Positions 24,587 through 29,036 of a DNA stretch of 64,000 nt are shown here, piece after piece (position 1 is the first letter of the stretch; each line of letters starts with the position of its first letter). Source of the DNA: Candidatus Chlorohelix allophototropha (lineage in GTDB: Bacteria > Chloroflexota > Chloroflexia > Chloroheliales > Chloroheliaceae); contig NZ_CP128399.1 in the NCBI RefSeq assembly GCF_030389965.1, positions 1,240,001 to 1,304,000 of the forward strand, read 5' to 3'. A model generated the notes under the pieces. That model did no database searches and was not told the origin of the DNA. It was given only the letters and a program-made list of their open reading frames with translations. Position numbers and translations under genes: made by a program.

Positions 24587-26434
24587 TTAAGGAGTAGTAG
24601 TCTGCGTCCCGTTAGTCTGGTTGCGCCCTAACATAGCGCTCAGAATCGGGTCGGAGGTGGTAATTGCTTGTATTTTGCCACTGCTATCCAGAATTATCAG
24701 ATAATCAAATTGTCCAGCACGATCGCCATATTGCAGCGTCGAAGAATAACTGGCTTCAGAATTTCCGGCGGGATAGCTTTTGCCACGAACAAAGCTGTAA
24801 CCCACATAACTCAGCTTGACATTCTGGGTAACGGCTTCCGCTTTATATTTACCTATTTCGACTGCCATAGTGGCAGGGGTAATCCCTTTTCCGCTCAACT
24901 CTTTCTGGTAACTAGCGCTGAACGAAGCCCAGATTTTTTGGGTGTCAAAGGTGGTCAAACCTGACATCAAGCGCTCGGCTACAAAACTAGGAGAGAGCAA
25001 ATCTGTGCCCGTTTGCGGCAAGGTAGAGCTATTTGAGGGTCTGCGAAGGGCGGTGCTAACGATTGGGTCTTGCGCCACAATCTCAGTGACTTTATCGCTG
25101 CTATCATACTTCACCAAAAATACGGTGGTTGTTTCGCGCCCGTTTACGGTATAGCTGACGGTGTACATCTCGGCGTTTGAGCCTGTATCACGGGTTTGTC
25201 CGGCTTGCCCCAATTCAAAACGGGTATATTGCGGCTTCTCACTGATTGCGTCAAGCTCCTTGACAGTACTGTCAATAGCGGCTTGCATATTGTTCTGATT
25301 GAAACCATCAGCGGCTAGAGCTTTCTTATAGGCATCGCTCAACCCGTTCCAAATGAGCTTAGCATTGAATTTTGAAATGCCCTGCAAAACCTGCACGCCG
25401 GCGCTGCGCGGCTTGATAGTCGCATCAGCACTACGCACTATCGATTCGAGAAAGATTGCTTGCAGCGAAGGGTCGTTGCTGGTTACCTGAGTCACATGCC
25501 CGGTAGCATCAAGGTTGATAGTATAGGTAAATTGCGGGGTGGTGCTATTTTTCAGATATGCAGCATATTGTTCAATTGTCGCAGTGGAAGTAGTATCAGT
25601 TTGATTGCCGCGTAGGGTGAAATGATCGTAATTAGGAACGGTAGCATCTTTTTTAAGCTTATCAAAAGCCGCCTGTATCATTGGCTGATCTACACCGGAG
25701 TCGTTCAACTGCTGGTGGTAATCATCAGAAAGCGATGTCCAAACTTCTTTCGCATCATTTTTGAATAGACCAAGCAACAGAAGGGTGCTGCCATCACCCG
25801 GCTTTACCAACGGGTTTGCGCTACGCACAGTGGTGAAGAACAGGGTTTTTGACAATTGCGAGTCATCGCTCATAATATCGCGGATACGATCTTTAGCATC
25901 AACTTTCAAAGCATAATGTGTTTTGGTTTCAGTAGCACCGATTTTCAGAGTAGCTTCAAAAACATCGGCTTTACCGCTACCGTCACGCAAGTCTCCAAAA
26001 CCCTGCCATGTAAAGTATTCATACACAACCGGGTCACCACTAGCCTGAGTGGGCTTTTTAGCTTCGTCCAGCAGTTGTTGCAACCGCGCCAAATCAAGTC
26101 CATTATGAATCAAGGTTTGGCGATAGTCCTCATTAATGCCCTGCCATATTTGGGAGGCATTGTAGGCGGCAAGACCTTTTAGCACTTGCACGCTGGACTC
26201 ACGCGCCGTACCTGTCACCCCATCAGCATTACGGACTAATGAACTGGAATTATCCGCACTGACGATATTCAAAAAGTTGGTGGAAACAAGCAAAGTGATT
26301 GCTGCCGATAGGAAAGCTATAATAATGAAACTACTCACCGGATGGCGAGTAGTAAACCGCCCGGTATTTATGGTCAACCGTCCTAAACCCCGAAAGAAAC
26401 GGATTGTAATCCGACCAACTATTTTAAATATCAT
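24587..26434 (-). CDS. Membrane-anchored protein with four tandem repeats of about 112 residues
   Basis: 615 residues, unrecognised. The N-terminus has FRGLGRLTINTGRFTTRHP and one helix (about 34-56), after which the chain should be outside. Four units follow at about 81-193, 214-323, 345-457 and 484-598. Each begins with a V-x-V-L-x-G-L/I-x-x-F/Y-x-A-x-x-I/V-W segment, has a Y-x-x-x-L-x-x-x-G pattern, and ends with a strand and V-T-x-I-x-x-x-D-P. The units look like an NTF2/cystatin-type helix-plus-sheet fold. It shares its N-terminal design with the next gene upstream. Both lie just upstream of ftsH on the same strand, so they may be FtsH partners or substrates. Confidence 0.7.
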   Translation of the reverse strand: MIFKIVGRITIRFFRGLGRLTINTGRFTTRHPVSSFIIIAFLSAAITLLVSTNFLNIVSADNSSSLVRNADGVTGTARESSVQVLKGLAAYNASQIWQGINEDYRQTLIHNGLDLARLQQLLDEAKKPTQASGDPVVYEYFTWQGFGDLRDGSGKADVFEATLKIGATETKTHYALKVDAKDRIRDIMSDDSQLSKTLFFTTVRSANPLVKPGDGSTLLLLGLFKNDAKEVWTSLSDDYHQQLNDSGVDQPMIQAAFDKLKKDATVPNYDHFTLRGNQTDTTSTATIEQYAAYLKNSTTPQFTYTINLDATGHVTQVTSNDPSLQAIFLESIVRSADATIKPRSAGVQVLQGISKFNAKLIWNGLSDAYKKALAADGFNQNNMQAAIDSTVKELDAISEKPQYTRFELGQAGQTRDTGSNAEMYTVSYTVNGRETTTVFLVKYDSSDKVTEIVAQDPIVSTALRRPSNSSTLPQTGTDLLSPSFVAERLMSGLTTFDTQKIWASFSASYQKELSGKGITPATMAVEIGKYKAEAVTQNVKLSYVGYSFVRGKSYPAGNSEASYSSTLQYGDRAGQFDYLIILDSSGKIQAITTSDPILSAMLGRNQTNGTQTTTP

Positions 26435-26459
26435 AAGTGAACTACCCCTTATGCGAATA

Positions 26460-27044
26460 TTAATTAAAGGCGATTATTTTGCCTTGCCCTGCCACTACTA
26501 GGGTAAAAGGCTCATCTATTATTTGCTTATTGATGTTTAAATAGCGCGCTACATAGAAATGGATGGTCTGCCCATCTCCACCGTCAAAGCCGCCGATATA
26601 ACGATATTCTTGGTATTGCATACCTCGTTCTTTAAACTGGGCAAATTGCTGCGCAAAGTAATCTTTACCCCTGCCCATCTGAGCAAGTTGGTTTTGAAGC
26701 TGGGCATCGAGTGAATTCCATACATCATCGGCATTGAGATAAATCTGACCGCGCATGAAAGCTTCTGTAATCTGGGGCGCGTTTGTGGTACTTATTTTTG
26801 AAGATGTGGCAGAAGCTTGAGCAGAGACGCTTTTGCTTACTACCGGCTGGGGGTTACCTACTACTATATTAATGTTGAGAATTGTTATTAGTAACCAGAT
26901 GCCACCCACTACAACCGCAGTAAGTACCACGCCACCCAGAATTGTTTCGTGCCGACCAAAAAATTTGAATATTCCTATAGTGAAACGACCTAACCCGCCA
27001 AAAAAACGGGTAAGTAATCGACCAAATACGCGGAAAAGTAGCAT
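26460..27044 (-). CDS. Membrane-anchored single-repeat paralogue of the 615-residue protein
   Basis: 194 residues from ATG 27044 (GTG 27053 is possible). The N-terminus FGRLLTRFFGGLGRFTIGIF and one helix (about 40-62) mirror the neighbour at 24587-26434, and the outer part holds one copy of the same repeat: ITEAFMRGQIYLNADDVWNS to FTLVVAGQGKIIAFN. The pair probably arose by duplication and then repeat expansion in the other gene. Function is unknown. It precedes the larger gene by about 25 bases in the same direction. Confidence 0.65.
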   Translation of the reverse strand: MLLFRVFGRLLTRFFGGLGRFTIGIFKFFGRHETILGGVVLTAVVVGGIWLLITILNINIVVGNPQPVVSKSVSAQASATSSKISTTNAPQITEAFMRGQIYLNADDVWNSLDAQLQNQLAQMGRGKDYFAQQFAQFKERGMQYQEYRYIGGFDGGDGQTIHFYVARYLNINKQIIDEPFTLVVAGQGKIIAFN

Positions 27045-27298
27045 ATACCGCACCCGGTGTTATTTTATTTTGAGATTTAAAACCGGATCAAACGCCGGAA
27101 AGCTCGCCTGCAACGGGTCTCCGGGTTAAAATTGAATAAGTAAAGAACAACCTGCGAAGCGGGCATCCTTAGCAAGGATTATAGCTGAGTCTTAAGGCTA
27201 TAAGTGTTAAATAACTATTAAATGACTCTGAAATGTTTGCTAATATATAGGAGAAATTATAGCACCAAATACCCGAGTGAAACCATGTAAATCGGATT
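27045..27298. other. Intergenic region with a small inverted repeat
   Basis: No gene seen. A 7-bp inverted repeat (TTATAGC 27179-27185 with GCTATAA 27197-27203) lies 100 bases after the glycosyltransferase stop on the minus strand. It lacks a clear T-run. Confidence 0.3.
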
Positions 27299-28906
27299 CT
27301 ATTGCAGATTCCAGCTTCTGAGAAATAATTCCCAGTTTTTGCGACGCTGGCGTTCTTCTTCTTCGGGGCTGAAACCATAATGAGGGGAAGTACCTAGTTG
27401 ATCAGTGCGCTCCAATAACGGTTCAATATCCGGCAAAATCATCAGTCCAAAGCCTTTATCCTTAAAATTATAGGAATAATCGGCTTCAAGAGCGTAGGGG
27501 TGGCGGAAATGCTCGTCCATAAATCCCACTTCGTCCTCAACCAACACGCGCCGGAAGCATAATAAGCTACCTTCAAGCGCATCGGGGTGGGCTCCAGTAA
27601 GGCTTAGACCAACCGCTTTTCCCTCCTGCCGTTCAAGCTTCAAACCCGCCAAACCGTAAAGAGCATATTCTTCCATCGCGTAAAGACGGTGATAAAGCGC
27701 GTCAAACAGGTCGCCTTTGAGCTTCAAACCCGGTTCGAGCAGCAACAACCAACGCCCGCGGGCTTGCCGAAAAGCGATATTGCGTGCGGCTGCCACACCC
27801 AAATCCTCCGCGAATAACGCCCTGAAATTACGGTAAGCGGTGTTGAGAGTTTGGAGATATGTGGTTGTCTCCTCCGCGCCGTTCAAATCCACCACAATCG
27901 TCTCAACTGTGCGCTTCGAGTTGATGACCTGTGCCAGCAAACTGTTCAGGGTGATTTTTAGCTCAGGCAAATTCTGGCGCGAAACCAAGCACACCGTAAA
28001 ATCGAAGCGATCTTCCTCACGCAAGAAAGAGCGCACTATGCGGCTGTTCTTAAGGCGGAGTAAACCCTGCGTTTCCTCTTTCTGCTGCTGTTCTCTCTGC
28101 TGTGGCTTTTTCTGGAAAGGCTTGTTTTTGGAATCGCTCATACGGGGCGTGCCTTTTGCCCCTTCCCTGCCTGTAACCGGGTTTTTGGCTTTCTTATCCG
28201 GGTAGCGGGTCGGCTCATTTTTCGGTTCGGCAGGCGCGGGATTATCCAGCCCTAGTTCAAAGCCAAGCACCCGATCAAACTCAGCCAGTAAACGCAGGCG
28301 GGATGCATCATCCAAATCACTTTGTAATAGCATAGCCCATAGCACCGTCAAGGCACGGGGCAAATTCAGGTCGTCGGCGATTTGCTCATAAAAGCGGTTG
28401 CGCCATTCTTCCACTGAGGCAGAGGCTTTGCCGCTTTCGGCTAACCCGCCGTTGGTATTCTGAGCTTTCAGGCGCGAAATAGAGCTTCGCAGCCTTTCCA
28501 GCGCAGTTGCCGAATCGGTAAGAGCGCGAAGCGGAGGCATGTTATCACGATAATGGGTTGAAGCCAACCAATAGCGCAACTCGGCTGGACTAAAGCCAAT
28601 CAGGTCGCCGGGATTTATAGCAAGGTCAGGTGCGCCGGGCAGCAACGTAAAAGCCGCCTGTTTGCGTTCTTCCTCATCGGTTATGAGTAGGCAATCGGCG
28701 GTAGCAGCCTCGCTTACACGCTCAAACTTGAGACGCTTTCGCTGCAACGCCTTCCCAAGCCAATCCAACAGGCAATTCAAACGTAGGGTTGCGGGAGTAC
28801 GCTTATCCTCAAGCAGGGGGGCGGAGACATAAAGCTTTATTAGACCCTTATGGTCGGGTAATTTTTCTTTGCGACGACTATGCGCGTTGTATATTTTCAG
28901 TTCCAT
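27299..28906 (-). CDS. Degenerate cysteinyl-tRNA synthetase domain fused to a family 2 glycosyltransferase
   Basis: 535 residues. Residues 1-220 align by eye with CysRS: MELKIYNAHSRRKEKL at the N-terminus, LYVSAPLLEDKRTPATLRLN where CysRS has LYVCGPTVYDxxHIGHAR, then a short jump to FSPAELRYWLASTHYRDNMP (CysRS: xLRYFLLSxHYRSP) and the helical EQIADDLNLPRALTVLWAML. The zinc cysteine, HIGH, the middle of the catalytic fold and KMSKS are all gone, so it cannot charge tRNA. A basic linker (about 225-285) leads to a GT-A fold (about 300-480) with FTVCLVSRQNLPELKITLNS, VVDLNGAEET and LGVAAARNIAFRQARGRWLLLL, where the usual D-x-D reads EPG. Cytosolic; sugar and acceptor unknown. Confidence 0.75.
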   Translation of the reverse strand: MELKIYNAHSRRKEKLPDHKGLIKLYVSAPLLEDKRTPATLRLNCLLDWLGKALQRKRLKFERVSEAATADCLLITDEEERKQAAFTLLPGAPDLAINPGDLIGFSPAELRYWLASTHYRDNMPPLRALTDSATALERLRSSISRLKAQNTNGGLAESGKASASVEEWRNRFYEQIADDLNLPRALTVLWAMLLQSDLDDASRLRLLAEFDRVLGFELGLDNPAPAEPKNEPTRYPDKKAKNPVTGREGAKGTPRMSDSKNKPFQKKPQQREQQQKEETQGLLRLKNSRIVRSFLREEDRFDFTVCLVSRQNLPELKITLNSLLAQVINSKRTVETIVVDLNGAEETTTYLQTLNTAYRNFRALFAEDLGVAAARNIAFRQARGRWLLLLEPGLKLKGDLFDALYHRLYAMEEYALYGLAGLKLERQEGKAVGLSLTGAHPDALEGSLLCFRRVLVEDEVGFMDEHFRHPYALEADYSYNFKDKGFGLMILPDIEPLLERTDQLGTSPHYGFSPEEEERQRRKNWELFLRSWNLQ

Positions 28907-29036
28907 ATCGCCTAGAAGTATAGAGCATAAGCCTCAAAATGTAAAAAGGTGCACAAATGCAATTTCAATTGCGGCGTATAGGCAATTGGGGTAAACTTGA
29001 AAGACAGAACACGAATTTTTCAAAGGAGAGAATAGA
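28907..29036. promoter_or_regulatory. Divergent region upstream of the pyruvate dehydrogenase operon
   Basis: 130 bases between divergent genes; must hold the pdh promoter. AAAGGAG precedes ATG 29037. No confident -35/-10 pair is visible. Confidence 0.35.

Follow-up and report, generated by a model that had tools for sequence, protein, structure and literature searches.

A short CysRS–glycosyltransferase fusion gene of Candidatus Chlorohelix allophototropha, a probable degenerate paralogue of an intact Chloroflexota fusion

The stretch of DNA analysed here (the window, 64,000 nucleotides) carries a gene that is probably best explained as a lineage-restricted, doubly degenerate paralogue of a Chloroflexota fusion between cysteinyl-tRNA synthetase (CysRS) and a family 2 glycosyltransferase (GT2), kept as a binding or regulatory protein. 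A copy of the full fusion would have been stripped of about 200 residues from the catalytic core of CysRS and of the anticodon-binding domain; it would also have gained a basic disordered linker and lost likely catalytic residues of the glycosyltransferase (GT), and selection would now retain the short protein for binding, not for catalysis. As a double pseudoenzyme it would most likely serve in regulation or as a scaffold, with its GT-A fold and its CysRS helical domain recognising either a ligand or another protein as partner. The gene is no lone oddity: the intact fusion is found in the same genome and in other Chloroflexota.

Layout and two halves of the short protein

As shown in Table 1, the protein has two domains joined by a linker. 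The first-pass annotation had read one fused gene here, and one gene it is, on the minus strand; the plus strand is full of stops over the same span. The two-domain protein is also a single open reading frame in four related genomes, and the uninterrupted frame here and in these relatives rules out a frame error or two genes joined together. Next to the gene, at 24587–27053 on the minus strand, two proteins of 615 and 197 aa have no Pfam family above cut-off and show repeated segments by eye; they sit between it and a gene for an FtsH-like AAA protease.

Table 1. Features of the short CysRS–GT2 gene, in window coordinates.
Feature	Position	Strand	Basis or remark
Short CysRS–GT2 fusion gene, 535 aa	27299..28906	minus	Span includes stop codon
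Residues 1–64, N-terminal strands and first helix of the CysRS Rossmann core, without zinc Cys and HIGH	28715..28906	minus	BLASTP, site table, structure match
Residues 65–103, short bridge replacing about 200 residues of the CysRS catalytic core (CP1/zinc, KMSKS)	28598..28714	minus	Alignment, site table
Residues 104–222, CysRS helical domain after KMSKS; no anticodon-binding domain beyond	28241..28597	minus	TIGR00435, hhalign
Residues 223–284, basic linker, net +7, low-confidence/disordered 223–280	28055..28240	minus	pLDDT under 50
Residues 244–249, VTGREG, linker motif	28160..28177	minus	Alignment of five short forms
Residues 285–535, GT-A fold, GT2-like, degenerate catalytic residues	27302..28054	minus	PF00535, fold Z, site table
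Residues 391–393, EPG at DxD position	27728..27736	minus	Site table, alignment
Sigma-70-like promoter TTTACA-17-TATACT, 10 bases upstream of ATG	28917..28945	minus	Consensus match only, 10/12

It was found that the N-terminal half has the class I CysRS fold. As a single-sequence query, the window protein is matched by TIGR00435 at residues 105–209 (E 5.3e-13) and by Borrelia CysRS (PDB 3sp1) at residues 104–218 (phmmer, E 3.6e-6); residues 1–64 can be aligned both to the N-terminus of CysRS and to the long fusion, in the latter case at 33% over 63 aa by BLASTP. The five short homologues taken together align with three CysRS-type sequences at an hhalign probability of 95.9% (E 5e-9), and their N-terminal part is closer to the long fusions (99.3%, E 9e-21) than to canonical CysRS. 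The AlphaFold2 model, built with 23 aligned relatives, has a mean pLDDT of 82 and consists of two folded parts and a disordered linker (223–280); its residues 1–224 match 3sp1 with Z 19.8 (rmsd 3.0, 223 aligned). As long fusions were part of the model's alignment, this fold match depends to some extent on the homology that it would support; the single-sequence matches to TIGR00435 and 3sp1 are independent of that alignment.

In the window copy the zinc ligands Cys, Cys, His and Glu are replaced by S and gaps, and the HIGH-type and KMSKS motifs are absent; no CysS_C match was obtained with Pfam, and the disordered linker takes the place of the anticodon domain. As judged from sequence and predicted structure, residues 1–222 are a true but gutted CysRS, which agrees with the earlier claim of a dead CysRS N-terminal part without zinc Cys, HIGH and KMSKS, and the CysRS match for residues 1–220 on which that claim depended was found. 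Of the segment order proposed with it, the CysRS parts at 1–222 stand, but the "anticodon-proximal" piece corresponds to the helical domain, and no anticodon-binding domain is left. Residues 1–64 are basic (net +4 to +9) and the linker has a net charge of +7 to +8, both in all five homologues, with a mildly acidic helical domain between them; the basic linker may allow non-specific nucleic-acid binding. The linker is otherwise variable and disordered, and the motif V-[TA]-G-x-E-G is kept in it in all five short forms.

The family 2 glycosyltransferase described earlier behind a basic linker is confirmed: PF00535 matches residues 305–390 (E 5.9e-8, above cut-off), and predicted residues 301–535, with pLDDT about 94, match GT-A enzymes such as GalNAc-T2 (Z 20.3). 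The DxD position reads EPG in the window copy and DAG in the other four short forms, so that its third position is G in 5/5, and it reads DTS, DAS, DPS or GNH in the long forms. The altered DxD had been correctly noted; it is not special to the window copy, as no GT of the fusion family has a canonical DxD. Since this is so everywhere, the GT of the parent may itself be a module for binding.

The intact fusion in the same genome and across Chloroflexota

A TIGR00435 profile search of the window genome gave four CysRS-type genes: the window gene, a canonical CysRS of 475 aa (L001), a CysRS–GT2 fusion (L002; 795 aa if translation begins at the likely ATG, 815 aa if at the first start codon) and a CysRS/MshC-like protein of 416 aa without anticodon domain (L003). 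The true cysS that had been expected elsewhere in the genome is L001. The long fusion keeps the zinc ligands, HIGN, KMAKS, the anticodon domain, the GT2 domain and a His-rich tail; it matches CysRS 1u0b over 437 residues with Z 38.8, the fold of its CysRS half matches canonical CysRS at Z 39.9, and the window protein aligns with it at 27% over 458 aa (BLASTP, E 1e-42). At the locus of the intact fusion (L039:7928-10312, contig 2, 477 kb), 18 His lie in the last 75 residues, and the gene lies between one for a PMT-like membrane protein on its upstream side and a Fur-family gene on its downstream side. Elsewhere in this genome, an MshC-like gene (L003:1477-2727; 358 bits, cut-off 485) and an MshA-like one (L198; 397 bits, cut-off 462) point to a possible mycothiol-like pathway in a Chloroflexota.

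The long fusion occurs in 13 of the 158 genomes of the class, under six family codes (two of the 13 are partial at contig ends), and a scan of 84,980 species genomes adds fusions from Dehalococcoidia and other Chloroflexota; among the matches listed from that scan none is fusion-like outside Chloroflexota, and no plasmid homologues were found. The fusion is scattered in Chloroflexota, in Chloroflexia and Dehalococcoidia, and the search for it in other members of the phylum that the first-pass annotation had proposed was successful. A canonical CysRS is also present in all ten fusion-locus genomes checked (that of G158 is deduced from two further CysRS-type frames on one contig), and the idea that the fusion is its host's only CysRS is rejected on this ground.

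The CysRS halves of the fusions group in one clade apart from canonical CysRS (SH-aLRT 100), and L168, a standalone CysRS-like protein, branches at the base of this clade. In the GT tree, one clade (100/100) takes in every fusion GT, the five short forms and one S51-GT protein; inside it the short-form GTs make up a clade of their own (100/100) on a long stem, and they score 120–143 bits against A1 vs at most 51 bits for other GT2 proteins of the same genomes. The GT of the window protein falls in the fusion clade, and the protein has no complete CysRS with catalytic residues.

An S51-peptidase-like gene directly follows the long fusion in G096 (L170), at L078 and, with overlapping ends, in G020, and a more distant S51 member lies beside it in the window genome with the Fur-family gene between. 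Close S51-like orthologues occur in 6/13 fusion genomes vs 9/145 others (hypergeometric P about 3e-4, ignoring shared ancestry). The protein at L086:4870-6711 has an S51-like N-terminus, recognised by eye and with no Pfam S51 match at E 0.1, in place of the CysRS catalytic domain, followed by a CysS_C-like stretch and a fusion-type GT2; the fusion lineage's standalone CysRS-like protein (L168:6635-8047) is encoded in the same genome. In G001, genes that look by eye like those for cystathionine beta-synthase and gamma-lyase lie about 1 kb from the long fusion. The S51 and cystathionine-gene neighbourhoods are associations, not functions. In G096 (L170:15234-16783), an ArsR-family regulator and a His-rich cation-diffusion transporter, both recognised by eye, lie a few kb from the fusion, and together with the His-rich tail they suggest a possible metal link.

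Decay, retention and possible roles of the short form

Of the 158 genomes of the class, only those of the window's family have the short form, and all five of them carry it. It is an open frame of 535–600 aa in these five genomes, at 39–43% identity. All five copies have lost both zinc cysteines, the zinc His, HIGN and KMAKS, and the only CysRS catalytic position with a trace left is one aligned Glu in G002. The values of dN/dS in three genomes of one genus are 0.10–0.26 for the CysRS parts and 0.13–0.20 for the GT, and are approximate because they come from NG86 with dS of about 0.8–2.3; these values indicate that both domains of the short form are under purifying selection. As evolution has kept this seemingly dead copy, the protein probably works by binding or regulating and not by catalysis. 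The data show the homology, the motif losses, the shared ancestry, the purifying selection and the confinement to one family; the lack of catalysis and the binding or regulatory role are inferred from them.

The missing motifs are no proof that activity is gone, and GT2 enzymes with an unusual DxD exist. It is conceivable, with a probability on the low side, that the short protein is a working glycosyltransferase of non-canonical, perhaps metal-independent type, in which the CysRS remnant is only an appendix for folding or partner binding. The well-predicted GT fold is consistent with this, as are the acceptor-side half of the domain, which is the most conserved region among the short forms in the alignment, the conservation of the long forms, which likewise have no canonical DxD, and the retention in the window copy of the "VD" Asp on the nucleotide-binding strand. 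Against it, that Asp is E in two short forms; the Asp at the catalytic-base position, assigned by alignment to the GT2 pattern, is D in 18/18 long forms but lost in four of the five short forms, of which the window copy has E there, three others have G and one keeps D; and HxH and W, kept in every long form, are lost in 5/5 short forms.

The CP1/zinc region and the anticodon-binding domain are two main tRNA-contacting parts of CysRS. An improbable account, which follows the steering idea of the first-pass annotation, is that what is left of CysRS, with the basic linker, still holds on to tRNA or another RNA and so directs a glycosyltransferase that is active, if unusual, to this RNA. The basic charge of linker and residues 1–64 in all five homologues and the conservation of the helical domain with the long form would fit, but this domain is mildly acidic, and the idea is weakened because both tRNA-contacting parts are deleted and, in all five copies, the GT is missing likely catalytic residues. 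No better placed is a hetero-oligomer of active and dead paralogue in which the short form is the regulatory partner of the long fusion: the two occur together in three of the five family genomes and share the conserved helical domain, but G003 and G004 have the short form only (an absence of the long form that rests on 91–92% complete genomes), which speaks against a role as no more than a long-form subunit. A decaying pseudogene, which the lost motifs might suggest, is rejected as having next to no chance, given the dN/dS values and the conservation of the open frame, and a promoter-like site lies directly upstream.

Relation to known systems and significance

MshC, the mycothiol cysteine ligase, is a CysRS paralogue that acts on a sugar and is not fused to a GT; in mycothiol synthesis MshC and MshA act separately, in cysteine activation and in the supply of the sugar acceptor. 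Residues 1–218 of the predicted model resemble MshC in fold (PDB 3c8z, Z 18.4), but the window protein has no active site and scores 12.3 bits against TIGR03447 (cut-off 485); the long form reaches 216 bits on the same profile and differs from MshC in keeping the anticodon domain. Canonical CysRS (TIGR00435; 3sp1, 1u0b) shares its fold with residues 1–222 and with the CysRS half of the long fusion; it differs from the window gene, which is without all catalytic motifs and the anticodon domain, and from the long form, which carries GT2 and often a His-rich tail. On its sequence features the window protein would not count as a member of CysRS, of GT2 in the catalytic sense, or of MshC.

The preferred, weakly supported guess is that the parent fusion couples an MshC-like cysteine activation to a sugar or sugar-nucleotide domain. 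A tentative and rather doubtful extension is that the intact fusion, the S51-like partner and the His-rich tail constitute a new Chloroflexota cysteine-conjugating system, in which the CysRS half would activate cysteine and the GT half would supply or hold the sugar acceptor, the window protein being a dead offshoot that regulates or senses one element of the chemistry.

It has been reported that HisZ, a dead HisRS paralogue, activates HisG and is kept as a regulatory subunit (PMC10795190; PMC9437257), which is the same kind of role as that proposed for the window protein; HisZ, however, has a class II fold and no GT fusion. GmaR is a GT2-fold flagellin glycosyltransferase and an antirepressor of MogR (PMC9638930), that is, a GT2-fold protein controlling a transcription repressor, but it has no CysRS part; the fusion GT domain gives a weak profile match to it (22ao, E 0.0018). 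As to this parallel, the short form overlaps a PadR regulator gene by about 4 bases in G001 and G003, a link seen in one genus only, and its neighbours show no conservation between the window genome, G002 and the other genus. The PadR-family genes L041:8336-8941 and L044:8442-9065 of that genus abut or overlap the short-form end (about 4 bases at L044). CysRS* of Desulfobacterales, a CysRS paralogue active on a special tRNA (reviewed in PMC9437257), is without an anticodon-binding domain, like the window protein, but is catalytically active and has no GT.

In the open-access literature searched, no published description of a CysRS–GT2 fusion or of the short form was found. The intact synthetase–glycosyltransferase fusion is apparently undescribed, in line with the first-pass statement that the combination is not known from any described family. 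Time and again, synthetase paralogues that no longer serve translation, MshC and HisZ among them, have brought new metabolism or regulation to light. Several Chloroflexota lineages carry an intact CysRS permanently joined to a GT in addition to the housekeeping CysRS, and this points to a link between cysteine and sugar or between tRNA and sugar. The window gene, as a probably dead two-domain derivative kept by selection, may serve as a case study of how enzymes become binding proteins.
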